This document shows positions 3,300-51,226 of a DNA stretch of 64,000 bases, one piece after another. The stretch is from NCBI RefSeq assembly GCF_003063245.1, contig NZ_MUXE01000001.1:1-64000 (forward strand). The letters are read 5' to 3'. Origin of the DNA: Arcobacter caeni. Lineage in GTDB: Bacteria > Campylobacterota > Campylobacteria > Campylobacterales > Arcobacteraceae. A program made the position numbers and the translations under genes. Numbering within the stretch: the first letter of the stretch is position 1; every line of letters starts with the position of its first letter. The notes beneath the pieces were generated by a model. That model was not told where the DNA came from and made no database searches. It saw nothing but the letters and a program-made list of their open reading frames with translations.

Positions 3300-3302
3300 T
3301 GA

Positions 3303-4318: not shown

Positions 4319-4319
4319 T

Positions 4320-5042
4320 TTAGTAAGCCTTTACCCAAATTAAAGCACCGTTTTCAACAGGATAATTTTTCCCATCTGTGTATTTTAATTCACCCTCTTC
4401 TATCAAAGCTGCAAATCCCCACCAACCTTTGTGATTCATTACAAAAGAAAAAACTCCATTAGCATCTGTTTTTACGACTTGTGTTACATGGGCATCATTT
4501 GGTGCTTTTAAACCAAAGTCATTATAAGCTTCAACTTCTACTTCTACATTAGCTGCTGGTTTTCCATCATGCAAAACTTTTCCTTGAAATAAATTTCCAG
4601 AATACAAACCAAAAGGTTTAGTAAGAGGAATAATTTCATATTTTAAACCAATTGGTTCATCCCAAGCATCTTCTAATCCAAAAGCACTAACTATTAGTTT
4701 TGGAACATGGGAAATGAATTTTTCTTCTGCTGGTTCAAAATACGGCTGTGGTTGTACAAAAAACTTATAAACTCCAGGAGTTTTTATATCATAAGAACTA
4801 TTCCATGATTTATGCCCAAGTTTTGTGGTTTCACTTAGGTTTAATTTATTATTTTTTGAATTTACAAAAACCTCAGGTTTTTCCAAAGTCATACCTGTTT
4901 GTTCAAAAGGATGTATAAAAGATATATCCAAATCTACTTTTGATTCCTTTTGATTATTTACATTATCTGTGTTTGACATAAATGTAAGAAAGTGCGCATT
5001 TGCGTAGAGTGTAGCAAAAATTAAAAATATAATTTTTTTCAT
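4320..5042 (-). CDS. nikK: NikK-like DUF4198 periplasmic component of the nickel transporter
   Basis: This is an exported protein of 240 residues with the signal peptide [16 protein letters not shown]. The mature part is a DUF4198-type fold with repeated beta segments ([31 protein letters not shown], then [19 protein letters not shown]) and ends in a WVKAY tail. DUF4198 proteins (NikK) accompany NikM and NikL and are thought to deliver metal. It is the first gene of the operon. A TATAAT box lies at 5069-5074 and a GGAG ribosome site at about 5050, both on the minus strand. Confidence 0.8.
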
Positions 5043-30725: not shown

Positions 30726-32366
30726 TTATTTTTGAATCATAAATTCTTTATTGTAATAAATTTTAAAATTTTTAGTAATACTTTTTTCAACTAAAGATGT
30801 GAATAAATCATTTGTAAACATATCTCCGCATAAGCTAACTGCTTTTACTTCATATGATTCATTTATAGTATCAGTTTTTCTTCCTATAAAGTGAGCCAAA
30901 CTTTCTATAAATCCTAAAGAGATTGTTTCTTCATCAACACCTGCTAATTTAAAACTAATTGAAGATTTAATTAAACTAATATAATCAAATTTTTTATGGA
31001 AAAGTTTTTTTGAATCAAACAGTTTATAATCAATTCTAGGACCTTTTTCTAAAAAACAATTATTGGCATTTTCTAAAATACTATTTTTAAAATCTAAGAT
31101 AATTTTTGCAATTTCCCAATAACAATAAAAAGAACTATTTTTATACATTGATATATCAGTATTTATAGCTTTTTTATACTCTTTCTCAAATTTATTCTTA
31201 TAGTTTTCAACTAGTTTTTTACCACCATCATTTTTTTGTATTTCTTCAAATATCTCTTTTATTGAGGAAGGAATATAAAATGATTCTACAATATCAACTA
31301 AACCATCTATTTTTTCAGAATAATAAGACATTCCATCATCATCTTTTGTACTTATATAAAAATTTAGAATTGAACTATCAAATAATTGATTTTCTGCTAA
31401 AACTGTCATAAATTGTGACTTATTTTTTTCATTAAATTTTTCATATACATTGTCTAAATTTTTAGGATATGAATTTGATTTTAAAATTAATTTTTTATTA
31501 TCAAAACATTTAATTATTGGAATATCCAAAAAAATATCATTAAAAATATCATTTTTACAGTCAATATCTAAAAAATAATCAAAATCACTATTTTCTTCTT
31601 CAATATTTAAAAAAGATATATCATATTGTTCTAATTGTAAAGCCAATAAATGAAGTGTCAAGTCATTTGGGTATCTAATATCAATATTAGTTTTTTTCAC
31701 ACTATTTTTTTGTCTATATATTTCATTTATTTTAAAATTAATTTGTGGTTTTTCAATACTAACAAGAGCCACAATATCTGTTTTATTTTCTACAATAATT
31801 TGAGATATTTTTCTAATATTTGTAACAAGAAGAGAAGAAGATTCATCTAAAGTTTTTATTTTAGAAAAAATAAAAGTTCCACTTAGTGTTTTTATTTTTA
31901 TTTTTTTATCTTCATTAATTAACAAAGCTATTTTTTTAAATAATTCAATATTTGATTCTACTTTTTTATCTTCAAATAAAAAAGATGCTTCTTCAAAACC
32001 ATCACAAATATTGCAAGATTTAAAGGCATTATAAAAATCTTTGCTTTGAGTATTCTCAACTTCTTTTAAGCATGAAGGACAAAAAGATATAGTTTTTTCT
32101 TCATTTAAACAAATTGAATTCAAAGTTAGTATTTCATCGACAACTTCTATTTGAACATCATAATAATAAATAGACATGGGAATATAAACAGATAAAGACT
32201 CTGAGAATTTTTCTAAAATTTCTTCATTTGCTTTTACATATAAATAAACAAAATCTAACTCTTGATATATTTTGTATTCACAATCAAATTGTTTTGAAGC
32301 AAAATCTAAGAATTTTGCTAGTGTTTTATCACTTGATTTATATGTAAATTTAAATTTTAGGACCAT
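30726..32366 (-). CDS. hydE: HydE-type hydrogenase accessory protein, HypF-related (copy 1)
   Basis: The last gene of the first hydABCDE operon, 546 residues. HydE of Wolinella and Helicobacter is needed for active uptake hydrogenase but its reaction is unknown. Vestiges of HypF are visible: a CPSC...CNIC zinc finger at about residues 95-120, SIEKPQINFK where HypF of this window has SKEKPIVLVK, and a terminal SLCGDMFTNDLF where HypF has VLGGGVFQNKTLL. The acylphosphatase motif and the HHxxH metal site are missing, so it is not a second carbamoyltransferase of normal type. It is unrelated to the radical SAM HydE of [FeFe] enzymes. It overlaps hydD by 17 bases. Confidence 0.8.
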   Translation of the reverse strand: MVLKFKFTYKSSDKTLAKFLDFASKQFDCEYKIYQELDFVYLYVKANEEILEKFSESLSVYIPMSIYYYDVQIEVVDEILTLNSICLNEEKTISFCPSCLKEVENTQSKDFYNAFKSCNICDGFEEASFLFEDKKVESNIELFKKIALLINEDKKIKIKTLSGTFIFSKIKTLDESSSLLVTNIRKISQIIVENKTDIVALVSIEKPQINFKINEIYRQKNSVKKTNIDIRYPNDLTLHLLALQLEQYDISFLNIEEENSDFDYFLDIDCKNDIFNDIFLDIPIIKCFDNKKLILKSNSYPKNLDNVYEKFNEKNKSQFMTVLAENQLFDSSILNFYISTKDDDGMSYYSEKIDGLVDIVESFYIPSSIKEIFEEIQKNDGGKKLVENYKNKFEKEYKKAINTDISMYKNSSFYCYWEIAKIILDFKNSILENANNCFLEKGPRIDYKLFDSKKLFHKKFDYISLIKSSISFKLAGVDEETISLGFIESLAHFIGRKTDTINESYEVKAVSLCGDMFTNDLFTSLVEKSITKNFKIYYNKEFMIQK

Positions 32367-32913
32367 TTATAATATCCCTTTTAAATGAGATTTGAGAAAT
32401 ATTCTCAATAGTTGTATTCATATTTCTAATTTTTACACTTATATTTAATTTTTCTAAATGCTTTAAAACTACGGATTCCATAGTTATAACTGCATTGATA
32501 ATTTCACTACTTAATTCAAAAGTAGTATCGTCACTAACTCTTTTTGGAATAATTCCTAAAACATTAGTTGTAGGTAAATCTTTGTTCATATCAATCATAT
32601 TTAGTGTTTGAAGCATTTCAACTTCATGGGCGCTTCCTTGCCAATTTACATAAGATGGAGTATTTTTATAGTCAAAAAAATACACATCTCCTGCTTTTGA
32701 ATTATCAGCATCAATACAATCAACTACGATAACTTCATCATACTTAACAATCTCAGGAATTAATCTTTGAGCCAAAGTTCCACCATCAACGATACTAACA
32801 CTGTTTTTATCAGATAAAAACTCATATTTTTCATCTAGAAAATGTATAAAATGAACTCCCATACCCTCATCTTGGAATAGAATATTTCCAATTCCTAAAA
32901 TTAATATATTCAC
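32350..32913 (-). CDS. hydD: Hydrogenase maturation protease HydD (copy 1)
   Basis: An endopeptidase of the HyaD/HybD family that trims the C-terminus of the large subunit once nickel is inserted. The N-terminal GIGNILFQDEGMGVHF carries the nickel-recognition acid, VVDCIDADN the second acid and GSAHEVEML the histidine. I prefer GTG 32913, which overlaps the hydC stop as GTGA, over ATG 32931; the choice adds or removes six residues. It overlaps hydE. Confidence 0.92.
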   Translation of the reverse strand: MNILILGIGNILFQDEGMGVHFIHFLDEKYEFLSDKNSVSIVDGGTLAQRLIPEIVKYDEVIVVDCIDADNSKAGDVYFFDYKNTPSYVNWQGSAHEVEMLQTLNMIDMNKDLPTTNVLGIIPKRVSDDTTFELSSEIINAVITMESVVLKHLEKLNISVKIRNMNTTIENISQISFKRDIINGPKI

Positions 32914-33578
32914 TTTTTCTCTTCTTCCCATTTATAACCTGATACTATTGAATCCATCGCACCACTTTTCCCATAAACTGAATTAAAAATAGCCAAATAA
33001 ATATGAATTGGTAAAAATATTATAAATACCCACATACAAATATGATGAATTTCTCTAACCATTGCTAATCCACCTAAAATAACTTCAAGAGGACTTAAAA
33101 TATCATATAATAATCCACCTAATCCTTGATGATATACATGAATATGTAAGATTAATCCTGTAATTGAAATTACTATTAAAGCTCCATATACGCCTGTATA
33201 TGCCATAAATTGTAAAGGATTATAAACACCTTTTAAATGAGCATGTTTTCCTATTAGCATATAATATTTTATTTGTTTAAACCAAACGATAGGATTTATA
33301 AAATCCCAAAAAGAAGCTCGTTCACCTTTACTTTGTTTGTCAAAAATAAATAAATAAAATTTTCCTAAGGTAACGCAAATTAAAACAAAACCAAAAATAA
33401 TATGCCAAGATCTCATTAAGGCATTTAAATAGTTATTTGGTTCACCTTGAGTAAGACTAGATGCAATAAATGGAACTGCAATATAAAATCCTGTAAAAGT
33501 AAGAATTATAATTGCAAGAACTCTAACCCAATGAGTAAGTCTAAGCCATAAAGAAAATTCATAATGTTTTTTTATCAT
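32910..33578 (-). CDS. hydC: Hydrogenase cytochrome b subunit HydC (copy 1)
   Basis: A di-haem b membrane anchor of 222 residues that passes electrons from HydA to menaquinone. It has four helices with histidines in LRLTHWVRV, RSWHIIFGF, LILHIHVYHQG and EIHHICMWVF...LPIHIYLAI. Typical of group 1 uptake hydrogenases. It is placed 10 bases after hydB and overlaps hydD. Confidence 0.92.
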   Translation of the reverse strand: MIKKHYEFSLWLRLTHWVRVLAIIILTFTGFYIAVPFIASSLTQGEPNNYLNALMRSWHIIFGFVLICVTLGKFYLFIFDKQSKGERASFWDFINPIVWFKQIKYYMLIGKHAHLKGVYNPLQFMAYTGVYGALIVISITGLILHIHVYHQGLGGLLYDILSPLEVILGGLAMVREIHHICMWVFIIFLPIHIYLAIFNSVYGKSGAMDSIVSGYKWEEEKK

Positions 33579-33588
33579 AATAATCTCC

Positions 33589-35322
33589 TTATTGACAAGC
33601 TAATCCATAAATGGGATCAACTTTATATGTTCCTAAATCATTACCTTTTTTATCCATTACATGAACAGCACAAGCAATACAAGGATCAAAACTATGTATT
33701 ATTCTAATAATTTCTAAAGGCTGTGAAATATCAGCAACCTTAAGTCCTATTAAACTCGCTTCATAAGGTCCCATTTGTCCTTTTGCATCAATAGGTCCTG
33801 CATTCCAAGTTGATGGAACAACAGCTTGATAGTTTTCAACTACTCCATTTTTTATTCTAATCCAATGTGATAACATTCCTCTTGGAACATCGCCTATGAA
33901 TCTTCCTCTATACTCTTTATCTTTATCTATTTTATAAGAAGTATAAGTATCTTGGTTAACTTTTAAATTTTCAATCAATGTATAAAAAGTTTCTAATCCG
34001 TATTTTGCAATTGCCTTTGCTTGAATCATTCTAGCAGCAGTTCTTCCAAGAGCTGTAAATAGTGCAGATTTAGGAAGACCTGTTTTTTCTAAGAACTCAT
34101 CAACTAAGGGAACTATTTTTTTATTCCCTTTTGCATAAGCAATTAAAATACAAGCAAGTGGTCCTACTTCCATAGCTTTTCCATCATATCTTGGTGATTT
34201 AATCCAAGAATATTTTCCTTTTTCATCAACTACTTTTGAATGAACTTTTTCACCATGAGATCCTATTGTATCCATATCTTTAAGACCTGTATATTTAGGA
34301 TTTGTTTTACCCTCATATGGATGTAAAGGCTCATCATTTTCATACCATGAGTGAGTTGCTTCTTCTGTAATTAAATCTTCATTTATTTCAAATACTTTTG
34401 ATAAATTTCCATTCATTATAAATCCTGAGCTAAATAAAAATTCACTCTCATTTAACTGCATCTCTTCATGTGCCATAAAATTCATAACACCTGCTTGTTG
34501 TGTAACAGAGGGTTCATCTTTAAAAATACTTGCTGCCATTAAAACATCAGCTTGATAAGCTTCATTTACAAACTCTGCACCTTTTTTAAATAATGTTAGG
34601 AATTCTCCCATTCTTGAAGGATCTAGTAAATCCATAATACAAGTAACTCCACCAACAGTTAAACTTTGAGGATGTGGTTGTTTTCCTCCAAATAAAGCCA
34701 TAAGTTTTGCTAAGTCTCGTTGAATTTCTAAAGCTTTTAAATAATGAGATAAAAGTATTAAATTTTGCTCAGGTGAAAATCTATAAGTTTTATGTCCCCA
34801 ATAAGCATTTGCAAAAGGTCCTAATTGTCCTCTTTGCACAAATTCTTTTACTCTGTTTTTTACTTTTTTAAGGTCATTTTCACCCGTTGCTATTGGATAA
34901 TCTGAATACTTAAATGCTTCTTTTGAAGCTTTTGATTCATCTGCATCTAAAGCAGAAACAACATCAACCCAATCTAGTCCATGCAAATGATAAAAATGAA
35001 CAACATGGTCGTGCATAAATAAAGATTGATTCATTAAAGATCTAGTTAATTTTGCATTTAAAGGAGGAATTATTCCTAAAGCATCTTCAACAGCTTCAAT
35101 TCCTGCTCTATAATGTGAGAAAGTACAAACTCCACAAATTCTTTGCATTAAAAAACCTGCATCTCTTGGATCTCTATTTTTAACAATAGTTTCTAAACCT
35201 CTCCAAAGAGTCGAAGAAGAATACGCTTTTTGTATTACATTATTATCATCAACTTCAACTTCAATTCTTAAATGTCCTTCAATTCTTGTAATTGGGTCAA
35301 TAATTACTCTTTTATTTTCCAT
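33589..35322 (-). CDS. hydB: Quinone-reactive [NiFe] hydrogenase large subunit HydB (copy 1)
   Basis: The 577-residue catalytic subunit. The two active-site pairs are RICGVCTFSH near the N-terminus and DPCIACAVH near the C-terminus. After the final His a 21-residue extension (VMDKKGNDLG... to LACQ) remains to be cut off by HydD. Family blocks such as ITRIEGHLRIEVEVD and FHLHGLDWVDVVSAL-like text are present. It follows hydA by two bases. Confidence 0.96.
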   Translation of the reverse strand: MENKRVIIDPITRIEGHLRIEVEVDDNNVIQKAYSSSTLWRGLETIVKNRDPRDAGFLMQRICGVCTFSHYRAGIEAVEDALGIIPPLNAKLTRSLMNQSLFMHDHVVHFYHLHGLDWVDVVSALDADESKASKEAFKYSDYPIATGENDLKKVKNRVKEFVQRGQLGPFANAYWGHKTYRFSPEQNLILLSHYLKALEIQRDLAKLMALFGGKQPHPQSLTVGGVTCIMDLLDPSRMGEFLTLFKKGAEFVNEAYQADVLMAASIFKDEPSVTQQAGVMNFMAHEEMQLNESEFLFSSGFIMNGNLSKVFEINEDLITEEATHSWYENDEPLHPYEGKTNPKYTGLKDMDTIGSHGEKVHSKVVDEKGKYSWIKSPRYDGKAMEVGPLACILIAYAKGNKKIVPLVDEFLEKTGLPKSALFTALGRTAARMIQAKAIAKYGLETFYTLIENLKVNQDTYTSYKIDKDKEYRGRFIGDVPRGMLSHWIRIKNGVVENYQAVVPSTWNAGPIDAKGQMGPYEASLIGLKVADISQPLEIIRIIHSFDPCIACAVHVMDKKGNDLGTYKVDPIYGLACQ

Positions 35323-35324
35323 AA

Positions 35325-36485
35325 TTATTCCTCACCATCTTTTGGATTTTTAATTTTTGAAATTACAGCATGAGCTGCTATTCCAATACCTGTTACTGTT
35401 AATAATCCAACCCCAATTTTATCAGCTGTTGCATCTGCCCCTAAACCTTTAAATACTGTGTTATATAATCTATTTGCAACAGGTTCTTCAAATGGTCCCA
35501 TCGTATCCCAAAAACCAGGTTCACTACATCCAATACATCCATGTCCTGCTTGAATAGGCCATGACATATGAGAATTAAACTTATTTTTTGAACAATTATT
35601 AAAAGTATAAGGACCTTTACATCCTACTTTATATAAACAAAACCCTTTTTTAGCACCCTCATCACCAAATTCTTCAACAAATTCACCTGCATCAAAGTGA
35701 CCTCTTCTTTCACATAAGTCATGAATTCTTAAGCCATAAGCCCATTTTGGTCTATTATAAACATCTAAAGCAGGAAGAGTTCCATATAAAATATAATGAA
35801 GTAAAGTTCCAACAATATTCTTTTCACTAGGAGGACAACCTGGCACATTTATTACAGTTTTACTTGTAACTTTTGAAAGTGCTACTGCTCCTGTTGGATT
35901 AGGAATTGCTGCTTGAACTCCACCATAAGAAGAACAAGTTCCAATTGCAAAAATTGCAGCTGCATGTTCTGCTGCATCAATTGCATTTTGTTCACCTGTT
36001 TTTCCATGACCACCAATTGTTAAAAAGTGAGCATTTTCTCCTGAGGGAATTCCACCTTCTACCATTAAAATATACTGACCTTTATATTTTTCAATTGCAT
36101 TTTCAAGATTTTCTTCAGCTTGCCAACCAGCAGCTGCCATTAAAGTTTCATGATATTCCAAAGAAATATAATCAAATATCAAAGAATCAATAGTTGGAGC
36201 ATCTGTTCGTAGTAATGATTCACTACAACCTGTACATTCAGCCATATGTAGCCAAATAATTGGCAATCTATCTGCTAATTTTGCAGCTTTTGCAACCAAA
36301 GGAGTAAAAGTTCCAGGTAATGCTAACATAGCAGTTATAGCAGCTGCCCATTTCATAAAATCTCTTCGTGAGATTCCTTTTTCATCCAAATGTTTTGAAA
36401 TTGTTTTATTTTCTTTTAATTTTGGTAATTTTTCTAATTCTATTAATCTTTTTGATAATTTTTCATACAGTTTTTCAGCTTGCAA
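35325..36485 (-). CDS. hydA: Quinone-reactive [NiFe] hydrogenase small subunit HydA (copy 1)
   Basis: An iron-sulfur subunit of 386 residues exported with HydB by the Tat pathway (SRRDFMKWAAA at about 35-46). Proximal cluster ligands are ECTGCSES, GTCSSYGG and GCPPSEKN. The distal cluster lies around HDLCERRGHFD and the medial one in CKGPYTFNNC and GCIGCSEPGF. A C-terminal helix (IGVGLLTVTGIGIAAHAVI) anchors it to the membrane. The start is TTG 36485, with AAGG about eight bases upstream. Confidence 0.95.
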   Translation of the reverse strand: MQAEKLYEKLSKRLIELEKLPKLKENKTISKHLDEKGISRRDFMKWAAAITAMLALPGTFTPLVAKAAKLADRLPIIWLHMAECTGCSESLLRTDAPTIDSLIFDYISLEYHETLMAAAGWQAEENLENAIEKYKGQYILMVEGGIPSGENAHFLTIGGHGKTGEQNAIDAAEHAAAIFAIGTCSSYGGVQAAIPNPTGAVALSKVTSKTVINVPGCPPSEKNIVGTLLHYILYGTLPALDVYNRPKWAYGLRIHDLCERRGHFDAGEFVEEFGDEGAKKGFCLYKVGCKGPYTFNNCSKNKFNSHMSWPIQAGHGCIGCSEPGFWDTMGPFEEPVANRLYNTVFKGLGADATADKIGVGLLTVTGIGIAAHAVISKIKNPKDGEE

Positions 36486-36502: not shown

Positions 36503-36516
36503 TGAATGATTATTCA
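36503..36516. promoter_or_regulatory. Palindrome TGAATGATTATTCA, proximal to hydA copy 1
   Basis: A 14-base imperfect palindrome with half-sites TGAAT and ATTCA and a 4-base spacer. It lies just upstream of the ribosome site of hydA and downstream of a TATAAG box (on the minus strand near 36537-36542), a position suited to repression. A second copy lies at 36581-36594. Confidence 0.5.
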
Positions 36517-36580: not shown

Positions 36581-36594
36581 CGAATAATTATTCA
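36581..36594. promoter_or_regulatory. Palindrome CGAATAATTATTCA, distal to hydA copy 1
   Basis: Half-sites GAAT and ATTC with a 4-base spacer, in the 176-base gap between the hydE2 terminator and hydA1. On the minus strand it reads TGAATAATTATTCG, which is 13/14 identical to TGAATAGTTATTCG at 42734-42747, upstream of the other hydA. This suggests a shared regulator. Confidence 0.5.
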
Positions 36595-36661: not shown

Positions 36662-38194
36662 TTAATAATCTAAAGGATATTCTTTAGGTAGGATAATATT
36701 ATAAGTCTTACTAAGTGTTTTATTTGTTTTACTAAGAAGTATTGAATTTGCAAACATATTTCCACATAAAACTACATCTTTTGCTTTTAAATCTGTTGCT
36801 ATTTCATTTACATAATTGCAGATAAACTCACTCAAACTTTCATAAAAAGAATAAATTAATGTAATATTATCAACATCAGCCATTTTATACGCCATAATTG
36901 ATTGAACTGTTTTTCTATAATCTAAATAATTTATTCCATCGAGATTTACAAGTTTCATATCTATTTGAATTCCACTTGTCATACTCGTATTTAGTGCCAT
37001 ATCTTCGAACTCATTTGAACTTTTTATTCCTAAAACTTTTGCACACATATTTATAATTGATTCAAATCCATTTGTATTTAAAGGAACATCCCCTTCTAAA
37101 ACACTTGGAAACTTTTTTGAATAATTTGTAATCAATCTAGCACAATGTTCATCAATATCAGAAATCTCTTCAAAACAATTTTTTATACTATTTTGAATAT
37201 TTGGAATTGAAATTATCTCTTTTACTCCTTTTGTAGGAACATTTATAGATATTGAACTTTTATGTGAATTTTGAGAAAAATATACCCCAATAGATGGAAC
37301 TAATCTTTTTGCACTTTGAGCAAGAATTGCTTTAAAAACCCCACCATTATCATCAAAATAATCTTTTGAAGAGTTATATTTTTTATTTGCTGTAAAATCA
37401 TATTTAGGAAATAAACCCTTATCCCCATGAATTATTAAATTTTGCTCTTTGAAATATGTGATTTTTAAACCATCTTGATAAACCTCATCATTTACATATA
37501 AAACATGATTAATTCCATTTTCTTTTAAAGCTTTTGCAAATAAAATCACTTCTTTATCATCAGGAATTTTTGCATAAATAAAATTTGAAGAAGAAAATTC
37601 TTTATTTGCATTTTTTAATATTTTAAATTTTAGTTTAACTAAAGGTCTTTCAAGGGAACAAAGAAGTTGATAATCTTTAGTATTTATATCAAAAAGTTCT
37701 TCTATTTTACTAATATCAGTAATTAAAAGTTTGACTTCAAAACCTTTTTCTTCAAAATCTTCTCGAATTTTTTTATTTGGTAAAAAATAATCTTTTAAAC
37801 CATTGTGTGTTTCAAATCTTGAAATTCCACCTTTTGTAATTTTTACAATATCATTTAAAAAATCAATATTACTTTCTTCCATTATGTTTTTTATTGCATC
37901 ATTTGTTAGAAGTGTTAGATTTTGTTTTATATGAAAATCTTCTATTTCTTTTAAAGTTTCATCATAAGATTCTATGACATATGACTTTGCAATAAAAACA
38001 CTAAGTGGTAATTTTCTTTCTAATAAAGCAAAAAAATCTTCTATTTCTTCAGCACTTGTATCTAAAATAATAAGTATAAAACCATTGTATTGTTTACAAA
38101 TGGCATTTATTTTAGCTTCATTAATCAAACACTCTATTATGTGTTTGAAATATAAATTTGTTGTATTAAACTCTATTTTATAAATTAATTGCAT
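36662..38194 (-). CDS. hydE: HydE-type hydrogenase accessory protein, HypF-related (copy 2)
   Basis: A diverged paralogue of the protein at 30726, about 510 residues. Both share the C-terminal pattern (M/L)A(D/G)VD, FxESLxxFI and LCGxMFxN; here MADVDNITLIYSFYESLSEF and VLCGNMFANSILL. It also keeps SLERPLVKLKFK, the counterpart of HypF's SKEKPIVLVK. It has no CxxC zinc finger, which copy 1 retains. I start at ATG 38194 (MQLIYKIEF), which aligns with the start of copy 1; the frame is open to ATG 38212. It is the end of the second hyd operon. Confidence 0.75.
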   Translation of the reverse strand: MQLIYKIEFNTTNLYFKHIIECLINEAKINAICKQYNGFILIILDTSAEEIEDFFALLERKLPLSVFIAKSYVIESYDETLKEIEDFHIKQNLTLLTNDAIKNIMEESNIDFLNDIVKITKGGISRFETHNGLKDYFLPNKKIREDFEEKGFEVKLLITDISKIEELFDINTKDYQLLCSLERPLVKLKFKILKNANKEFSSSNFIYAKIPDDKEVILFAKALKENGINHVLYVNDEVYQDGLKITYFKEQNLIIHGDKGLFPKYDFTANKKYNSSKDYFDDNGGVFKAILAQSAKRLVPSIGVYFSQNSHKSSISINVPTKGVKEIISIPNIQNSIKNCFEEISDIDEHCARLITNYSKKFPSVLEGDVPLNTNGFESIINMCAKVLGIKSSNEFEDMALNTSMTSGIQIDMKLVNLDGINYLDYRKTVQSIMAYKMADVDNITLIYSFYESLSEFICNYVNEIATDLKAKDVVLCGNMFANSILLSKTNKTLSKTYNIILPKEYPLDY

Positions 38195-38771
38195 GGGTAA
38201 AATCTTCTTCATTTGGAATTCTTGTTAAATGTTCGCCATTGTAACTTCCTATCATACTTTTTACAATGTCAGGAATCAAGATATTTTTTACTTTTGTGGC
38301 TTTTATTCCTAAGCTTTCTATCTCTTTTATTGCATTTAAAATAAACTCTTCAAATTTATCTTCCATATGTTTTGTGAGTCCAATTTGAACAGTTTCAATA
38401 TCTTTTGGAATTATTCCAATAATTGTTACATTTGCATGTGAATCTAAAACAGAAACAATTTCTAACATCTCTACGATTTCAACTTCATGAGCTGTTTTTC
38501 TATAAGTTCCAAGCCCTAAAAGTACATCGCTTGGAAGTCTATAAATTCCTCCAACCTCATCTTCAATAGACACAGTATCTAAAATAATAACATTGTCATA
38601 CTCTTGAAAATATGCCATTAGTTTAAACCCTAATGTTCCACCATCAATAATTTCTAAATCTTCATCATCAAATTTGTAATTTTGACTAATATACTCAGCA
38701 GCATAAATACCAATGCCCTCATCTTTAAAAAGCATATTTCCTACACCAATTACAATATTTTTCTTTTGCAT
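38178..38771 (-). CDS. hydD: Hydrogenase maturation protease HydD (copy 2)
   Basis: A protein of 197 residues with GVGNMLFKDEGIGIYAAEY, IILDTVSIEDE and KTAHEVEIVEM, the landmarks of the [NiFe] maturation protease family. It is expected to process HydB copy 2. It lies 40 bases after hydC2 and overlaps hydE2 by its last codons. Confidence 0.92.
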   Translation of the reverse strand: MQKKNIVIGVGNMLFKDEGIGIYAAEYISQNYKFDDEDLEIIDGGTLGFKLMAYFQEYDNVIILDTVSIEDEVGGIYRLPSDVLLGLGTYRKTAHEVEIVEMLEIVSVLDSHANVTIIGIIPKDIETVQIGLTKHMEDKFEEFILNAIKEIESLGIKATKVKNILIPDIVKSMIGSYNGEHLTRIPNEEDFTHAINL

Positions 38772-38811
38772 AATTTCTCCAAATGGTTGAAGCTTTAAAG
38801 CTTCAACCTAT

Positions 38812-39519
38812 TTATTTTTTATCTTCTTTTTCTTCAACAAATTTATGTCCACTAAATACAATACCAATATCACCTTCTCTCCAGAAAATTGTTCTCCAGA
38901 TTTGGTAATAAATATGAGACATAACCCACATTAAAATAATATACATAGAAGTATGATGAGCGATTCTTACTCCCATATTTCCACCAAATACACTTAATGT
39001 CCAATCTGTTGCAAAGTGAAGCATCCATGGCCACCAACTTCCAATTGAGCTTAAACCTGATGCTAAACCTTGAACATATAATTGTAATCCAGTTAAAAGC
39101 ATAAATACTAATAAAATATGGAAAAATGTGAAAAATACAATATTGTAACTATCACTATGTGTTGAATCAAATTTCTTTCTTCTGTTAAATGTAATTAAGT
39201 TAAAAAGAACTTCCCAAAATTCAATAAAGTTTTTCTTTGTTGGTAAAATCTTTTTATATGGTTTATCAAACTTTGAAAAAAGGTATAAATAACCAATTAA
39301 AATTGCTGTTACATCAAAAATAATAGCAGCAATAAAATGTCCCCATCTATTCCAAGCCATTACATACTTATCCACAGCAGGATCAGCAATAAAAGTTTGA
39401 TAATAAGGATGTCCAATATATAAACCGGTTGCAACAGCTACAATCATACAAAACGCATTCGTCCAGTGAATGGTTCTCATGGTAGCTGTCATTCGCTCAA
39501 CCCTTTTCATTTTAGGCAC
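38812..39519 (-). CDS. hydC: Hydrogenase cytochrome b subunit HydC (copy 2)
   Basis: A membrane cytochrome b of about 235 residues with four helices and haem-ligand histidines in TIHWTNAFCM, RWGHFIAAII, FHILLVFML and ARIAHHTSMYIILMWVMSHIYYQIW-like text. I place the start at GTG 39519, because GGAGG (39532-39528) lies eight bases before it, inside the end of hydB2. The frame is open upstream to a TTG that overlaps that ribosome site and is less likely. Confidence 0.9.
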   Translation of the reverse strand: MPKMKRVERMTATMRTIHWTNAFCMIVAVATGLYIGHPYYQTFIADPAVDKYVMAWNRWGHFIAAIIFDVTAILIGYLYLFSKFDKPYKKILPTKKNFIEFWEVLFNLITFNRRKKFDSTHSDSYNIVFFTFFHILLVFMLLTGLQLYVQGLASGLSSIGSWWPWMLHFATDWTLSVFGGNMGVRIAHHTSMYIILMWVMSHIYYQIWRTIFWREGDIGIVFSGHKFVEEKEDKK

Positions 39520-41254
39520 GACTTGTTCCTCCAATTGGATCTACTTTATAAACACCTAATTCTTTACCATTTGTATCAATAATATGCACAGCACAAGCAA
39601 TACAAGGATCAAAACTATGAATTGTTCTTAAAATCTCAAGTGGTTGATCTGGATTTGCTACTTTTGTACCAATTAATGATGACTCATAAGCACCCATTCT
39701 TCCTTTGTAATCTCTAGGAGCTGCATTCCAAGTTGATGGAACAACAGCTTGATAGTTTGCTACTTTTCCATCTTTGATTTTAATCCAATGCCCTAATCCA
39801 CCCCTTGGAGCTTCTTCCATTCCAAAACCTTGCGCATCTTTTGAAACATTATCAAAGTTAAATTCAGTCCATGTTGATAAATCTCCATGAGCAACATTTG
39901 AAGCTAACTCATCAACCCATTCCAACATAACATCAGCCATTAGTTCACTCTCAATTGCTCGTGCAGCTGTTCTTCCAACTGTTGAAAATAGAACTTTTAT
40001 TGGTAAGTTTCCATTTTTTAGAAATGTTGTTACATATTTAGAAATTCTTTCATCACCCTTTGCAACTCCAACTATCATCCTTGCAAGTGGTCCTACTTCC
40101 ATTCTTTCATCATCATAAAGTGGTGATTTAATCCAAGAGTATTTATTATTTGTATCTAAATAAGCAATATTATCTTCTTTTTTTCCAAATCCTGTATATG
40201 CAGGTTTTGTAACACCCTCATAAGGATGTAAATTTGTAGTTCCCTCATACCAAGCATGAGTTACATCTTCTGTAATTTTTGTTTGATCAATTTCAAATAC
40301 TTTTGTTAAATCTCTATTTTTTACAATTCCTGATGGGAATAATTTAGCAGATTCATAAAAAGGTAAATCATCAAGATTGAATCCACCATAACACATATAG
40401 TTTCCGATTCCTCCACCAATTCCTTCTATTGCTTCATCCGCATACATAGTTCCAGCCATATAAACATCTGGTAAATATGCTTCTTTTACAAACTTCTGAC
40501 CTCTTTTTAAAATTTGTTTAAATTGAGCAATTCTTGCAGGATTTTTAATATCTTGAACACAAGTTACTCCACCTACAACAAATGATTGTGGATGTGGATT
40601 TTTCCCACCAAAAATAGCCATCATTTTTGCTAATTCTCTTTGTAATTCTAAAGCATCTAAATAGTGAGAAAGTCCAATTAAGTTTTGCTCAGGAGTTAAT
40701 TTAAATCCTTTTGAACCCCAATAGGCATTTCCAAAGATTCCTAGTCTTCCTTGTTTTACATATTTTGTAACTCTTTCTTGAACAGCTGTATATACATCTT
40801 CATTTGCATTCCATGGTTTATGTCCTGAAAGAGCCGCCCATTTTTGAGCTTCTATTACAGTTTTTTTAGGATCTGCTTCTAAAGCTTTTGTAATATCAAC
40901 CCAGTCAAGTGCATGTAAATGATAAAAGTGAACAATATGATCATGTAAATATAAAGCACCTTGAATAAGATTTCTTACTAATCTTGCATTTTTAGGAATT
41001 GTAATTTTAAAAGCATGCTCAACTGCTTCAATACTTCTTTGATAGTGAGTTCCTGTACAAACTCCACAAATTCTCATTGCTAATAAACCACAATCTCTTG
41101 GGTCTCTTCCTTTTAAAATCTCTTCAATTCCTCTAAACATAGTCGAAGAAGAAAAAGCATCCACTACAACATTATTTTCATCTATGATTGCTTCGATTCT
41201 AAGATGTCCTTCTATCCTTGTAATTGGATCTATTACTAAATGTTTTTTTGCCAT
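39512..41254 (-). CDS. hydB: Quinone-reactive [NiFe] hydrogenase large subunit HydB (copy 2)
   Basis: The 580-residue catalytic subunit of the second enzyme. Nickel ligands are RICGVCTGTH and DPCIACAVH, followed by a 22-residue tail ending GGTSRA for removal by HydD. It is clearly homologous to copy 1 but distinct along its length (for example GIGGGIGNYMCYGGFNLD has no equivalent). Its ATG overlaps the hydA2 stop as TAATG. Confidence 0.96.
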   Translation of the reverse strand: MAKKHLVIDPITRIEGHLRIEAIIDENNVVVDAFSSSTMFRGIEEILKGRDPRDCGLLAMRICGVCTGTHYQRSIEAVEHAFKITIPKNARLVRNLIQGALYLHDHIVHFYHLHALDWVDITKALEADPKKTVIEAQKWAALSGHKPWNANEDVYTAVQERVTKYVKQGRLGIFGNAYWGSKGFKLTPEQNLIGLSHYLDALELQRELAKMMAIFGGKNPHPQSFVVGGVTCVQDIKNPARIAQFKQILKRGQKFVKEAYLPDVYMAGTMYADEAIEGIGGGIGNYMCYGGFNLDDLPFYESAKLFPSGIVKNRDLTKVFEIDQTKITEDVTHAWYEGTTNLHPYEGVTKPAYTGFGKKEDNIAYLDTNNKYSWIKSPLYDDERMEVGPLARMIVGVAKGDERISKYVTTFLKNGNLPIKVLFSTVGRTAARAIESELMADVMLEWVDELASNVAHGDLSTWTEFNFDNVSKDAQGFGMEEAPRGGLGHWIKIKDGKVANYQAVVPSTWNAAPRDYKGRMGAYESSLIGTKVANPDQPLEILRTIHSFDPCIACAVHIIDTNGKELGVYKVDPIGGTSRA

Positions 41255-42489
41255 TATTTTTCTTCCCCTTCATTTGATTTTTTACCAGCAATTGCTGATG
41301 CCACAGCATGAACTCCAATACCAACCGCAGTTGCAGTTAATAATCCTAAACCAAACTCATCAACAGTTTTCTCAACTCCACCCGTTGGTGCTTTGATTTT
41401 TGCATCTGCCATTGGTCTTTCATAGGCATATTTATCCCAAAAATCAGGCTCAGAACATCCAATACAACCTCGTCCTACTCCAATTGGCCAGTTTGTACCT
41501 TCGTTATATCTTATGATTGAACAGTTATTAAAAGTCATTGGACCTTTACATCCAACTTTATATAAACAGAAGTTATTTTTAGCTCCCTCATCTCCCCACT
41601 CTTCTACGAATTCACCAGCATCAAAGTGAGCTCTTCTCTCGCAGTTATCATGGATTCTATAACCAAATGCAAATTTAGGTCTTAAAAGTGAATCAAGTTC
41701 AGGAATTTGTCCTGTTAATACATAATGTAAAACCACTCCAACCATATTTGCAGGATTAGCAGGACAGGCTGGAATATTAATAATTGGTTTACCTTTTACA
41801 ATATCCATAACTCCCACAGCACCCGTTGGATTTGGAGCAGCGGCTGGAACTCCACCAAATGTTGCACATGTACCAACAGCAACAATAGCTGCTGCATCTT
41901 TTGCCATTCTTATTAAATGATCGTGGAAAGTTTCACCCATAGCACCAATTGTTCCATATTGACCATTCATAGCCATAGGAATTGCACCTTCAACAAAAAG
42001 TAAATATTTACCTTTATAAAGATGTGCAGCTTCTTCTAGTTGTCTATCCGCATCATGTCCAGCACAAGCTTGTAGAGTTTCGTGATACTCTAAACTTAAT
42101 ACATCAAATAATAAGTCATCAACAGTTGGAGCAGCACTTCTTAAAAGTGCTTCTGAATTTCCGGCACAATCTTGTAACTCAATCCAAATAACTGGAACTC
42201 TATTCATAAGTTCAGTAGCTTGCGCAACAAGTGGAGCAAACATAGGAGGAAGCATAAGTGTAGCAGTTGTAGCACTAACCCACTTCATAAAATCTCTTCT
42301 ATTTACTCCTTCACTTTCTATAATATCCATCATATCAACATCTTTAAGTGCTGGTTGCGCTTTTAATATCGATAAACGATTTTTTACTTTTTCAAATAAA
42401 GAGTTATAATATTCTTCACCCTTATTTGTTTCAATTCTTCCTGATTTTTGTGTAAAAACTTTTTTTACCATTTCTTGCGAATCAATCAT
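41254..42489 (-). CDS. hydA: [NiFe] hydrogenase small subunit HydA (copy 2), CxGN proximal-cluster type
   Basis: A 411-residue small subunit with Tat motif NRRDFMKWVSA. It has GTCATFGG, ACPANPANM, HDNCERRAHFD, CKGPMTFNNC and GCIGCSEPDF. The first proximal-cluster motif is DCAGNSEALLRS, where copy 1 has ECTGCSES. The fourth position is therefore Asn, not Cys. CxGN is known from some other hydrogenase subgroups, so this is a subtype mark and not damage. A nearby extra cysteine (LQACAGHD) may compensate, which is inference. A C-terminal helix anchors it. GGGAG precedes ATG 42489. Confidence 0.93.
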   Translation of the reverse strand: MIDSQEMVKKVFTQKSGRIETNKGEEYYNSLFEKVKNRLSILKAQPALKDVDMMDIIESEGVNRRDFMKWVSATTATLMLPPMFAPLVAQATELMNRVPVIWIELQDCAGNSEALLRSAAPTVDDLLFDVLSLEYHETLQACAGHDADRQLEEAAHLYKGKYLLFVEGAIPMAMNGQYGTIGAMGETFHDHLIRMAKDAAAIVAVGTCATFGGVPAAAPNPTGAVGVMDIVKGKPIINIPACPANPANMVGVVLHYVLTGQIPELDSLLRPKFAFGYRIHDNCERRAHFDAGEFVEEWGDEGAKNNFCLYKVGCKGPMTFNNCSIIRYNEGTNWPIGVGRGCIGCSEPDFWDKYAYERPMADAKIKAPTGGVEKTVDEFGLGLLTATAVGIGVHAVASAIAGKKSNEGEEK

Positions 42490-42747
42490 ATACTTCTCCC
42501 TTATAAAAATGAATGTTCATTTACTTAATTGTAAAATATCTGCATAAAACTTATTCTTTTCTTAAGTACATATTCTTGAAAATAGCATTAAGATAGCTTT
42601 ATAGCTATTTGTTTTATATAGCTTTAATAATCATATGATTTTATGGTGTTTATTATTATGTTAGTTCTAAAAGTATATAAGTGAATTGAAAATTAATTAT
42701 TTTTTTATATTGTTACAAATATACACTTTTTTATGAATAGTTATTCG
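42490..42747. promoter_or_regulatory. Control region of the second hyd operon
   Basis: The 258-base gap between hupL-like and hydA2 has no gene. It contains TGAATGTTCA inside AAATGAATGTTCATTT at 42507-42522, just before the hydA2 ribosome site, a small stem ATAGCT/AGCTAT near 42594-42608, and the 14-base palindrome at 42734-42747. I found no sigma-54 type box. The length suggests a regulated promoter. Confidence 0.45.
42734..42747. promoter_or_regulatory. Palindrome TGAATAGTTATTCG upstream of hydA copy 2
   Basis: It differs by one base from the minus-strand reading of the site at 36581-36594 ahead of the other hydA, including the unequal end bases T and G. It abuts the stop codon of the third hydrogenase's large subunit and lies about 245 bases before hydA2. 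Confidence 0.5.
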
Positions 42748-44103
42748 TTAATGAGTAGTACAAACAGAACAAACATCAAAACTTCTTAACACAATTTTAG
42801 CAATTTCAATAGAAGGCGTTCCAATAATTGCTTTTTGTGCTATTCCTTTTTGAGTTTTATTTTTTGGACCTAAATTCCAAACTGTTGGTGTTATTACATC
42901 ATAAGATTTTATTAAACCTTTTTCTATACTTATATTATGTAATAAAGAACCTCTACAAGCTTCTACAACAGCTATTGCTTTAGCATTTTCTACATCTTTT
43001 AACGAATATTTTGGTTTTATATGTGAAAGCTCTGAAACATCAACTAAAGAAATTAAATTATTTGTTTCAAAAAGCAAAAACGCCATTTCATCCATTCGTG
43101 CCATTACTCTTGTAAAAGCTGAATCTTCAAAAGATTTATGTATATCTTTTATAAATTTTCGATTTGAAATAATTGCCCGTGAGAGTGGACCTGTTTCAAA
43201 AAAACTTTCATCATAAGATACAGATTTTGACCAAGTATGTTTTTGGGAATTATTTTCTTCTTTATTAATAGAAAAAGAGTAACTACTATCTTCTACTATT
43301 TTTGAGAAATCCAATTTATTAACTAATCTTTGTTTTATTTTTCCTCTTTTAAACAGACTTGATTCCCCTAAAGTTATAAACCTATTATGAGACTTTCCAT
43401 AAATTTCAAGTGAATATTTAAATGATAAATCTTTAAAATATTTTAAATCAGCACCCAAATTTTCTAAATTATCCACACTTTCATAAGTCAAATAATTTTC
43501 TAAACTAACTCCACTAATAGATTTTTCAAAAAAACTAATTGCTGTTTGTAAATAGTTTTGCATCATAACTAAATCAAGTTTTGTAGGATCACTCATCACT
43601 CCACCTGGAAGCATATATGAAGTATGTGGCCATTGTCCACCAATTATTGCTAAAGCTTTTATAGTTTCACTGGCACTTTTTTGAGCTTCCATCCATCGTG
43701 AACCTTTTATTGGTGCATAAATTCCTAAATCATTTGAATCTAGTTTTATAATATCAGGAAGAATAAACATATAAAACCATTTTAAGTGAGAATCAATTAT
43801 CTCAATATTTAAACCAATTTCTCTTAATAGTTTTGCTTTTTGTGTGATTTGTAATTTTTCATTTATATTTTCATAAATATTTTCCAAAGCATCAACTGTT
43901 GCTTTTAAATGTGCTTGTCCACAAATTCCACAAATTCTTGGAGTATAAACCAAAGCATCCAAGGGTGATTTCCCCTCTAAAATATATTCAAAGCCTCTAA
44001 AATTTAAAAAATCAATTCGAGCATCTTTTACTTTATTATTTTCCCATGTACAATGAAGTTTTGCTTCACCCTCGATTCTTTCAACTAAATCTATTGTTTT
44101 CAC
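42748..44103 (-). CDS. Group 2-like [NiFe] hydrogenase large subunit without C-terminal extension
   Basis: A 451-residue large subunit, shorter than the other two. It has RICGICGQAH for the first nickel pair and ends FDVCSVCTTH with the stop codon directly after His. There is nothing for a maturation protease to remove. That feature is known from regulatory (H2-sensing) hydrogenases HoxC/HupV and a few others. The Pro of DPC is replaced by Val. The GTG start at 44103 has GGAG five bases upstream, and the gene is two bases after the small-subunit gene. Sensor function is inferred; it could be a cytoplasmic uptake enzyme. Confidence 0.88.
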   Translation of the reverse strand: MKTIDLVERIEGEAKLHCTWENNKVKDARIDFLNFRGFEYILEGKSPLDALVYTPRICGICGQAHLKATVDALENIYENINEKLQITQKAKLLREIGLNIEIIDSHLKWFYMFILPDIIKLDSNDLGIYAPIKGSRWMEAQKSASETIKALAIIGGQWPHTSYMLPGGVMSDPTKLDLVMMQNYLQTAISFFEKSISGVSLENYLTYESVDNLENLGADLKYFKDLSFKYSLEIYGKSHNRFITLGESSLFKRGKIKQRLVNKLDFSKIVEDSSYSFSINKEENNSQKHTWSKSVSYDESFFETGPLSRAIISNRKFIKDIHKSFEDSAFTRVMARMDEMAFLLFETNNLISLVDVSELSHIKPKYSLKDVENAKAIAVVEACRGSLLHNISIEKGLIKSYDVITPTVWNLGPKNKTQKGIAQKAIIGTPSIEIAKIVLRSFDVCSVCTTH

Positions 44104-44105
44104 TA

Positions 44106-44996
44106 TTACTCCATCAATTTTTTATGAAGTCTGTCAATTCTAAAAGTTTTTGCAACTCCTGTCATACTTAAATATGCTCTTTTTGAAATTCCTAACGGAA
44201 CTTCATACGGTATTCCTATATTTTTTTTAGTTTCTAACATATCATTTCTCGGAAAATCAATTTCTGTACATCCAATACAAGGCATTCCAACTCTTGTTTT
44301 TGAACTAATATCATTCCATAAAATTTTATTACAAGAACTATGTGTCATAGGACCACGACATCCTTGGTCATAAAATAAACAGCCTTCTTTTTGTCCAAAA
44401 TTACCCTCAACTTTCCACTCAAAATATTCATTCCTTGTACATCCATGATGAGCCAAAGTACTATAAAGTTCCTTTGGTCGTCCAATTTCATCTAAAGCAA
44501 TTTCTCCAAAAGTTTTTAGAGTAAATAAAGTTTGTAAAATCCATTCAGGATGAACAGGACAACCAGTTAAATTTACAATTTTATGTTTTAGGTTTTCTAA
44601 AATATCTTTATTAATAGCTTCATTTATACTACAAATATCATCATTTTGAACAAACTTAGAATGAATTCCACCATAAGAGGCACAAGAACCAACTGCAATT
44701 ATATAGTTTGCTTTTGATGCTAATTTATTCAGATGATTAAAAGTTGAATCGTCACAAATTGTAAAAAAATCTCTATGAGAAGAAATAGAACCCTCGATTA
44801 ATAAAAAATCAATTTTTTCTTCTTGATTTAATATATCTTCAAGAGATTTATCAATAGTTAAACTTGGATGATAAATAAAATCAAAACTATTTAAAAATAG
44901 TTCAAATCTACTTGAGTTTGCACTTAATAATGAATGTGTATTTCCATTACATGAAATTGCAGTAAACCAAACAACAGTTGGTTTTTTAGTTGTCAT
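44106..44996 (-). CDS. Group 2-like [NiFe] hydrogenase small subunit, cytoplasmic
   Basis: A 296-residue small subunit that starts directly with the flavodoxin-like domain (KKPTVVWFTAISCNGNTHSLLSA). There is no Tat signal or C-terminal anchor, so the enzyme stays in the cytoplasm. The first cluster motif is CNGN, as in group 2 enzymes. The others are GSCASYGG, GCPVHPEW, HHGCTRNEYFE, CLFYDQGCRGPMTHSSC and PCIGCTE. Its ATG lies within the last codons of the TetR gene (11-base overlap), which couples the two. Confidence 0.9.
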   Translation of the reverse strand: MTTKKPTVVWFTAISCNGNTHSLLSANSSRFELFLNSFDFIYHPSLTIDKSLEDILNQEEKIDFLLIEGSISSHRDFFTICDDSTFNHLNKLASKANYIIAVGSCASYGGIHSKFVQNDDICSINEAINKDILENLKHKIVNLTGCPVHPEWILQTLFTLKTFGEIALDEIGRPKELYSTLAHHGCTRNEYFEWKVEGNFGQKEGCLFYDQGCRGPMTHSSCNKILWNDISSKTRVGMPCIGCTEIDFPRNDMLETKKNIGIPYEVPLGISKRAYLSMTGVAKTFRIDRLHKKLME

Positions 44997-45579
44997 ACTT
45001 CAAAGCACGATATATATTTTGAGCAACAGCATCTGAATAATAAAGTAAATCTTTATCTAAGACATTTTCTCCACTTAAAAAAGCAAATCCACCTAAACAT
45101 CCCATAATCATGGCAAATGCCGGGAAAAAATCTTGTTCTCTAAACTCTTTTTTACTTGCACCCTCTTCTAATAAAATCATAACTTCTGTTACAAATTCTC
45201 CTACACATAAAAAACCTTCACAACCTTGCTTGAATACTTCTCTATTTGACAAATAAACCCTTAAAAAATATTCTATAACCTCAGGTGATTTTTGAACATT
45301 TTCTAAATATTTATCTACAAATAAATATATTTTTTCTTTTGAAGTTATATCCATATTATTAATTTCTTTTAATTCAACAGCTAGAATATTTGTAGAGTAT
45401 TTTATAGCAAATTTTGCAAGTTCTTCTTTTGATGAAAAATAGTTATACATATTTCCAACACTCATGCTCATAGCTTTTGCAATATCTGGAATCGTTGTAT
45501 TATAAAAACCTTTTTGTGAAAAAAGTTTTAAAGCATTTTGAATGATATTATCTTTTTTATTTTCTTTATTAGTAGAAAT
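44986..45579 (-). CDS. TetR-family regulator with probable ATT start, leading the third hydrogenase
   Basis: A 197-residue TetR regulator. The helix-turn-helix is complete only if translation begins upstream of the first ATG (45471): NIIQNALKLFSQKGFYNTTIPDIAKAMSMSVGNMYNYF. In that frame a TAA stop (45583-45585) precedes the region, and there is no ATG, GTG or TTG before the HTH. The only plausible initiator is ATT at 45579, with AAGGA ideally spaced at seven bases. ATT starts are known to be inefficient (infC). The C-terminal ligand domain is of no recognised subtype. It overlaps the hydrogenase small subunit, so it probably controls hydrogen metabolism. Confidence 0.85.
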   Translation of the reverse strand: MSTNKENKKDNIIQNALKLFSQKGFYNTTIPDIAKAMSMSVGNMYNYFSSKEELAKFAIKYSTNILAVELKEINNMDITSKEKIYLFVDKYLENVQKSPEVIEYFLRVYLSNREVFKQGCEGFLCVGEFVTEVMILLEEGASKKEFREQDFFPAFAMIMGCLGGFAFLSGENVLDKDLLYYSDAVAQNIYRALKYDN

Positions 45580-48652: not shown

Positions 48653-51226
48653 TTAAGAGTGAACTAAATTAGTTAATTGTGCAGATGTAACTTGGTGGAA
48701 GTTTAAGTATTTATAAACACCATCTTTGTTTTTCTCTGTAATTTTCTTAGGTACAATTTCCATATATTCTTTAACAGATGGTAATCTTCCTAAAAGTGCA
48801 GTAACAGCAGCAACTTCAGCTGAACCTAAATAAACTTGAGAACCTTTTCCTAGTCTATTATCAAAGTTTCTTGTAGATGTTGAGAATACAGCAGCACCTT
48901 CAGAAACTTGTGCTTGGTTACCCATACATAAAGAACATCCAGGAATTTCAAGTCTTGCACCAGCTGCTGCAAAGATTGAATAGTAACCCTCTTCAGTTAA
49001 TTGCTCTTTATCCATTTTTGTTGGTGGTGCAACCCATAATTTAGCAGGAACTTCACCTTCACCTTTAAGTACTTCACCTAAAGCTCTGAATAATCCAATA
49101 TTAGTCATACAAGAACCTACGAATACTTCGTCGATTTTTTTAATTCTTTTTGGGTCATTGTTGATGTTTGTTAATGTATCAACATCATCTGGATCGTTTG
49201 GACAAGCTAAGATTGGCTCAGTAATTGTATTTAAATCGATTTCAATGATAGCTTTATATTCAGCATCTGCATCAGGAGTTAATAACTCTGGGTTTGCAAT
49301 CCATTCTTTCATTTTATCAGCTCTTCTTTGAAGAGTTTTAGCGTCTTCATAACCTTCTTCAATCATTTTTTCAATTAAAGCAATGTTTGATGATAGATAT
49401 TCAATAATTGGTTCTTTTGATAATTGAACAGAACAAGCTGCTGCACTTCTTTCAGCTGCTGAATCTGATAATTCAAATGCTTGTTCAACTTTTAAGTCTG
49501 GTAAACCTTGAATTTCAATAATTGTTCCAGCAAAAATATTTTTCTTACCTTTTTTCTCAACAGTTAATAAACCATCTTGAATAGCTTGGTAAGGAATAGC
49601 ATTAACTAAATCTCTTAAAGTAATTCCTGGTTGCATTTCACCTTTGAATCTTACTAATACAGATTCAGGCATTGTTAAAGGCATCATACCTGTAACACCT
49701 GCGAATGCGATAAGACCAGATCCAGCTGGGAATGAAATACCAATTGGGAATCTTGTATGAGAATCTCCACCAGTACCAACAGTATCTGGTAAACATAATC
49801 TATTTAACCATGAGTGAATAACACCATCACCTGGTCTTAATGTAACTCCACCTCTTGAAGAAATAAATTCAGGTAAAGTATGTCTTAATTTAATATCTGC
49901 TGGTTTTGGATAAGCAGCAGTATGACAGAATGATTGCATAACCATATCAGCACCAAAAGAAAGTGCAGCTAGTTCTTTAATCTCATCTCTAGTCATTGGT
50001 CCAGTTGTATCTTGTGATCCAACAGTTGTACAAATTGGTTCAACATACATACCTGGTTTAACACCTGCAATACCACAAGCTCTACCAACCATTTTTTGTG
50101 CTTGAGTATAACCATTTGTACTTGCAGCTGGTTGAGATGCAGTAACAAATTTATCAGATGCATTTAAACCTAAAGCAGCTCTAGCTTTTGCAGTTAATCC
50201 TTTTCCAATAATTAATGGAATTCTTCCACCTGCTCTCATTTCATCTGTTAATGTATTTGGAGCTAAATTAAATTTAGAAACTACAGCACCATTTTTTTCA
50301 ATTACACCAGCATATGGTTTAATTGTAATTACATCACCAGTTTCTAAAGCATCAACTGCAGCTTCGATTGGTAAACAACCTGAATCTTCTGCTGTATTAA
50401 AGAAAATTGGAGCAATAATAGAACCTAAAACAACTCCACCTGTTCTTTTATTTGGAACACCTGGAATATCTCTACCCATGTGCCATTGAACTGAGTTGAT
50501 TCCTGATTTTCTTGAAGATCCAGTTCCAACAACATCACCAACATAAGCTAAAGGATGACCTTTTTCTTTTAATTTTTCCATCATTTCTAATGGTTTTTCC
50601 ATTCTTGATTGTAACATTGCAGTTGCGTGTAATGGAATATCAGATCTTGTAAATGCAACAGTTGCAGGAGATAAATCATCTGTATTTGTTTCACCAGGAA
50701 TTTTATAAACAGTTAGAGTCATTTCTTCTTCTAAAGCTGGTTTGTTAGTAAACCATTCAGCATTTGCCCATGATTCAATTACTTCTTTAGCTTTTGTATT
50801 TCCAGCATCCATTAATTCTTTAACTTCATTAAATGAGTTATAAACTAAAATAGTATTTTTTAATTCTTTTGCAGCAGCATCAGCTACATCAGCAATTTTT
50901 AATGCTTCAACAAGTGGAGTAACATTAAATCCACCCATCATTGTTCCTAAAATTTCAATTGCTTTTACTTTTGAAATTACAGAACAAGAAACTTTTCCTT
51001 GAACAATGTCGTTTAAAAATGCAGCTTTAACATAAGCAGCATCATCAACACCTGGATTGATTTTGTTTGTAAATAAATCTAAACAGTAATCAGCTTCAAC
51101 AACTGGGTTAGCTTTTAGTAATTCTACTAATTCAACAGTTTGCTCAGCAGTTAAAGGTAATGCAGGTAAACCACCTTCATTAAGTCTTTCTTGCGTGTGT
51201 GCTTTATAATTAGCTAATAAACTCAT
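48653..51226 (-). CDS. acnB: Aconitate hydratase B
   Basis: AcnB (857 residues) converts citrate to isocitrate in the TCA cycle, through cis-aconitate. The AcnB order is visible: N-terminal HEAT-like domain, the swivel domain ([22 protein letters not shown]), and the catalytic core with [32 protein letters not shown] and GCSLCMGNQ, where the cluster cysteines lie. When it loses its cluster AcnB may bind mRNA in other bacteria. GAGGAG precedes the ATG. A TATAAT box at 51269-51264 would be its -10 element. Confidence 0.97.

Follow-up and report, generated by a model that had tools for sequence, protein, structure and literature searches.

A TetR-family repressor and a group 2d [NiFe] hydrogenase as a probable kinase-free H2-response module in Arcobacter caeni

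Here we describe a three-gene locus of Arcobacter caeni that probably encodes a kinase-free H2-response module, in which a TetR-family protein would repress the uptake hydrogenase (hyd) and maturation (hyp) genes and a group 2d [NiFe] hydrogenase would relieve that repression upon oxidizing H2. By naming a probable regulator, its predicted operators, the targets hydA1, hydA2 and hypB, and a candidate redox switch, this analysis provides a testable job for group 2d, a puzzling enzyme family.

The module is encoded on the reverse strand of a 64-kb window, the whole stretch of DNA analysed here, which belongs to an assembly of 2.4 Mb in 59 contigs; every large-subunit gene of the genome sits within this window. 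Transcription runs from the TetR gene (44986-45579, 197 aa, ATT start) through the small-subunit gene (44106-44996, 296 aa) to the large-subunit gene (42748-44103, 451 aa), with only a few bases of overlap or gap between genes. The TetR frame and the small-subunit gene share 11 bases, as an earlier note on this DNA had stated, and the other structural claims of that note held up as well, with the ATT start of TetR as the single correction. Specifically, the small subunit has no Tat leader and starts directly at its Fe-S domain, in which the proximal cluster motif CNGN replaces CxxC, and the large subunit has no C-terminal extension, terminating at the last active-site histidine (...RSFDVCSVCTTH, CSVCTTH) followed by a stop. 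The module indeed lies upstream of two uptake hydrogenase operons, both membrane-type hydABCDE operons on the same strand: target operon 2 (36662-42489), comprising hydA2 (41254-42489), hydB2, hydC2, hydD2 and hydE2, and target operon 1 (30726-36485), comprising hydA1 (35325-36485), hydB1, hydC1, hydD1 and hydE1. Both neighbouring HydA proteins carry the Tat motif RRDFMKW. The claim that no kinase is nearby also agrees with a Pfam scan, which among the window proteins covered returned neither a histidine-kinase domain nor a linked NtrC-type regulator (the pairing typical of group 2b); an MCP and a PAS-GGDEF protein of the window are both more than 33 kb away, and no redox-partner gene is present in the module operon. 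On the other side of TetR, a gene of AcnB length (857-859 aa) lies directly upstream in many genera (loci L041-L082); the aconitase AcnB of the window (48653-51226) has the same length, an identification that is by length alone.

Phylogeny separates this hydrogenase from the classical H2 sensors. In a maximum-likelihood tree, the Campylobacterota large subunits and three Aquificota proteins form one clade (support 100/100), apart from 2a (Huc-like), 2b (HoxC, HupV) and a 2c-like protein, and supported branches (100/100) split the window large subunit from HoxC/HupV. The clade corresponds to HydDB group 2d in the literature (PMC5401914, PMC12286921, PMC10052474); it also holds A. aeolicus hydrogenase III, S. 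multivorans HupSL and A. butzleri HuaSL, which resemble the window enzyme in being cytoplasmic and in having no C-terminal extension. By its position in the tree, the window hydrogenase is thus a member of group 2d, and membership in group 2b (HupUV/HoxBC) is rejected. The term "sensor-type" used in the earlier note was therefore wrong by descent and, in its strict sense, was not borne out. The broader proposal of that note stands in part: the TetR-hydrogenase module is kinase-free, has predicted operators at both hydA promoters and keeps its gene order, while the 2b-type sensor falls away. The operators, the hypB target and the TetR cysteines go beyond the note, and the relay from hydrogenase to TetR that it put forward stays a hypothesis, for which the invariant CX4C pair offers a candidate mechanism. 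Furthermore, the four NiFe cysteines, the proton-relay glutamate and the active-site arginine are invariant in 121 sequences, so that H2 turnover by the group 2d enzyme is to be expected; with all catalytic residues kept, there is room for an ordinary enzymatic role.

The window hydrogenase nonetheless shares features with HupUV/HoxBC (group 2b; HupT/HoxJ kinase and HupR/HoxA regulator, as on C. necator pHG1). Both are cytoplasmic two-subunit hydrogenases without a Tat signal or a C-terminal extension, their large subunits end at the last active-site histidine, and in both the gene adjoins a regulator of uptake hydrogenases. They differ in that the partner in the window is a TetR protein rather than a kinase and an NtrC-type activator, in that the window small subunit ends ~15 residues before the HoxB/HupU proteins and has no HoxB C-terminal tail, and in the small-subunit motif, which is CxGN in the window protein and CxGC in HupUV/HoxBC. 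One could suppose that the hydrogenase signals, as 2b enzymes do, to a HupT/HoxJ-like kinase encoded elsewhere and that TetR is unrelated to H2. This we consider highly improbable, given that the hydrogenase falls outside the 2b clade and has no HoxB tail, that no kinase was found among the window proteins scanned, and that the neighbour conserved in 113/120 loci is TetR and not a kinase. The closest solved structure by sequence is Huc, of group 2a (PDB 7utd), which has the CxGN proximal motif in common with the window protein; the 2a loci in our sample differ, however, in possessing a large-subunit C-terminal extension and a protease gene, in having no TetR module and in forming a separate clade. 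One genome with the TetR module (G138) additionally carries an extra group-2 hydrogenase with a C-terminal extension (locus L149), which branches with the 2c-like protein.

The pairing of TetR with this hydrogenase extends well beyond the window. The large subunit is present in 65/104 genomes of the family and in 113/397 genomes sampled across the phylum, the module being missing from several genera and from parts of the genus of the window. Among 120 Campylobacterota loci, 113 have the TetR-small-large order on the same strand (58/60 in the family, 55/60 in the rest of the phylum), a phylum-wide conservation of gene order, as the earlier note would have predicted, which argues that the module is not a product of chance. 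Across these 120 loci, the most frequent downstream neighbour is a hyd operon of either type, and TetR generally shows higher conservation than the large subunit (often 80% vs 60%). We additionally surveyed Aquificota, reaching these genomes via the Aquifex lumazine synthase, whose sequence was compared with PDB 1hqk as a check. Here the large subunit occurs in 56/136 genomes, and a TetR of 50-64% identity accompanies it in 54 of those 56, compared with 4/80 genomes without the large subunit. Coordinate spacing fits TetR-small-large in at least 21 genomes; in Aquificaceae, TetR lies on another contig or far from the hydrogenase genes and yet still co-occurs with them, so the association survives the loss of linkage. 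The TetR-hydrogenase link is real and old. Among the exceptions, TetR is found without a group 2d large subunit in three Aquificota genomes (G466, G492 and G560), and in another (G519) stop codons interrupt a TetR copy.

The predicted operator is the palindrome TGAAYNNNNRTTCA or an overlapping form, AATGANNNNTCATT. Before hydA1, an exact proximal copy (TGAATGATTATTCA, 36503-36516) lies ~18 bp ahead of the start codon, and TGAAYNNNNRTTCA-related palindromes recur farther upstream, including one with one mismatch (CGAATAATTATTCA, 36581-36594). Before hydA2, the proximal operator (AATGAATGTTCATT, 42508-42521, also delimited as 42508-42523) lies ~20 bp ahead of the start codon and is conserved in the genus, in which an almost invariant AATGAACATTCATT is found just before the hydA2 start codon; the upstream operator (TGAATAGTTATTCG, 42734-42747) has one mismatch. 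Across the 2.4-Mb genome, a search returned only 7 exact sites. One of these immediately precedes hypB-hypC-hypD, and operator positions at hydA1, hydA2 and hypB fall mostly within ~110 bp before the start codons. A loose palindrome count across the window gave no enrichment; the operator signal, as we read it from sequence comparison, is one of position and co-variation with the module, not of window-wide abundance. The region upstream of hydA2 (42490-42747) also has a conserved TTGTAACAA, which we take to resemble the HP1021 box, as well as GCTAT repeats and TTAAG...TAAG elements, and further regulators probably act there. At the far end of the window, a CbiM/CbiQ/ABC-type cobalt or nickel uptake cluster with a DUF4198 protein (2014-5042) has no exact operator before it.

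Across genomes, the operator follows the module closely. In our main count, anchored on the HydA Tat motif with 550 bp taken, the operator occurs within one mismatch in 134/135 hydA promoters from loci with the module (91 exact) and in 0/18 from family genomes that keep hydABC and are without the module (Fisher p=1.6e-22). At hypB, an independent target that was left out of the motif derivation, it is present in 30/35 genomes with the module vs 0/15 without (p=7e-9). Both p-values overstate independence, since the genomes are related. Exact palindromes of either form are present at 121/135 hydA promoters with the module and at 0/18 without it. The main count replaced an earlier one anchored on the longest ORF start (113/139 within one mismatch), because start calls are uncertain. 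As the motif was found by eye, two checks matter: the hypB count and a ranking of all 1024 half-sites with a 4-nt spacer. At hydA this ranking is led by AATGA (99 of 135), followed by TGAAT (81 of 135), the half-sites of the two overlapping forms; at hypB it is led by TGAAT. The operator is retained in exact form at a hydA1 located 1.65 Mb from the module (G029, L188), and in Aquificota the palindrome is seen directly before hydA (exact) and hypB (one mismatch) at L334 and between hypD and hypC at L333. Two module carriers (G003 and G012) have no operator at hydA2 or hypB within the 300 bp scanned. Conversely, a fragmented genome without an observed module (G048) has two operator sites and was set apart from the counts; as its contig begins directly upstream, the assembly may simply not include the module. 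With a TetR_N DNA-binding domain (Pfam, E=1e-14) and predicted palindromic operators whose occurrence at target promoters follows that of the regulator, the protein has the features of a TetR-family repressor. These patterns strongly support control of the hyd and hyp operons by TetR, which very likely acts by binding the predicted palindromes.

An operator also precedes TetR itself at 18/118 loci, confined to some genera (~70 bp before TetR at L055-L076, which span several genera) and absent in most genomes, including those of the window's genus; this placement suggests autoregulation of TetR in the former and not in the latter. In the group 2d literature cited here, TetR adjacency is described for S. 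multivorans only, where a TetR-like repressor gene upstream of hupSL was suggested to act on hupSL itself (PMC5357620). That suggestion, the adjacency of TetR to the hydrogenase genes and the loci with an operator before TetR would all suit a repressor that acts locally, on its own hupSL-type operon, and has no wider role. Such a restricted function can hardly be correct, because most genomes are without an operator before TetR and nevertheless have operators at hydA and hypB, also where these lie far from the module.

The TetR protein itself has two unusual features. Its frame contains no ATG, GTG or TTG ahead of the DNA-binding domain, the start at 45577-45579 reads AAGGA-6 nt-ATT, and ATT or ATA occupies this position in ~20 relatives (more distant genera have ATG, TTG or GTG); together these observations argue that translation very likely begins at a rare non-AUG codon. 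A conserved weak start codon may serve to keep the repressor at a low level. Second, cysteines C120 and C125 (CX4C codons, 45205-45222, reverse strand) are identical in 115/115 TetR orthologues, and the CX4C is missing from the genome's other three TetR proteins. When both cysteines of the query were changed to alanine, Aquificota full-length homologues lost ~8.5 bits, nearly uniformly, whereas unrelated TetRs or fragments outside the region lost zero bits, a drop that indicates that both cysteines are retained in the Aquificota TetR. That the pair functions as a redox switch is a guess. An AlphaFold model of TetR from the single sequence had a mean pLDDT of 43 and was discarded.

None of the NCBIfam TetR equivalogs comes close to this protein, the best match lying far under its cut-off, and a plasmid search for this TetR outside Campylobacterota returned only distant TetRs of at most ~35% identity. 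Because of a weak FadR resemblance and the presence of beta-oxidation genes in the window, we considered FadR-like fatty-acid sensing. The FadR operator is TGAATGA...TCATTCA-like, resembling the module palindrome, and the TetR_N domain is common to the module protein and FadR-type TetR/AcrR repressors (B. subtilis FadR, PDB 3whb). The similarity to the FadR model is, however, far below the FadR cut-off, and the module TetR differs in its invariant CX4C and in its predicted targets, which are hydrogenase genes. FadR-like sensing was rejected, as no exact operator precedes the beta-oxidation genes of the window and these genes lie outside the conserved neighbourhood of the module.

We propose that TetR would sit on the palindromes before hydA1, hydA2 and hypB and thereby repress the uptake hydrogenases together with the genes for their maturation. 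The H2 input would be the cytoplasmic group 2d hydrogenase, its oxidation of H2 altering the state of TetR, and the altered TetR would leave its operators, allowing hyd and hyp genes to be induced. That H2 is the signal, and that it acts through the group 2d hydrogenase, we infer with reasonable confidence. In the simplest relay, the hydrogenase would reduce the invariant C120-X4-C125 pair, acting as a dithiol/disulphide or by binding a metal or an Fe-S cluster; electron transfer to these cysteines is plausible, at slightly less than even odds. More tentative still is the general form of this idea, in which the [NiFe] hydrogenase would hand electrons from H2 directly to a cysteine or Fe-S switch in TetR and all of group 2d would be a family of sensors rather than of carbon-fixation enzymes; direct sensing of this kind, common to Campylobacterota and Aquificota, would therefore be old. 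If the proposal holds, the module would constitute a simple H2-responsive repressor system that could also serve in biosensors, and it would become necessary to revise models in which group 2d is treated as a reductant for carbon fixation.

Published expression and enzyme data can be set beside this proposal. In A. butzleri, RNA-seq found that H2 raises both hynAB operons 2.3-6.2-fold and that huaSL (group 2d) falls, which is suggestive of H2-dependent control of the uptake hydrogenase genes, in a transcriptome in which 1191/2260 genes changed and growth modes differed, so that a shift in metabolism confounds the comparison (PMC12286921). Hydrogenase III of A. aeolicus is hard to detect in cell extracts, and it has been stated that group 2d "could have a regulatory function" (PMC10052474). 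In S. multivorans, hupL transcripts are either below detection or very scarce in every condition tested and hydB/MBH is constitutive, the latter disfavouring a simple H2 switch in that organism (PMC5357620). The role proposed for group 2d is in carbon fixation by the reductive TCA cycle (PMC5401914, PMC2628731), and a metabolic, ferredoxin-reducing enzyme of this type (PMC5401914, PMC2628731, PMC5357620) would leave TetR to co-regulate the hydrogenases in answer to redox, oxygen, nickel or a metabolite instead of a signal from the hydrogenase. Consistent with this, all catalytic residues are present, and TetR is unlinked to the hydrogenase genes in Aquificaceae. We nevertheless regard it as unlikely, since TetR and hydrogenase co-occur near-strictly in two phyla even where unlinked, huaSL falls with H2 (PMC12286921), and detecting the A. 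aeolicus enzyme is difficult (PMC10052474). Moreover, ATP-citrate lyase, which marks the only cycle variant checked, is absent from the window's genome and from 57/65 family module carriers, and A. butzleri is also without key reductive TCA cycle genes (PMC12286921); judged by this variant, a carbon-fixation role does not fit the family well.

The target operons of the proposed TetR-hydrogenase module have peculiarities of their own. In the HydE-like proteins (36662-38212 and 30726-32366), similarity to HypF is confined to its C-terminal Kae1-like domain. The HydA2 small subunit (41254-42489) has the motif DCAGN(S/T), in which asparagine takes the place of an expected cysteine of the proximal Fe-S cluster; this motif is present in 88/88 hydA2-type genes in which it could be located, and HydA1-type proteins retain ECTGC.
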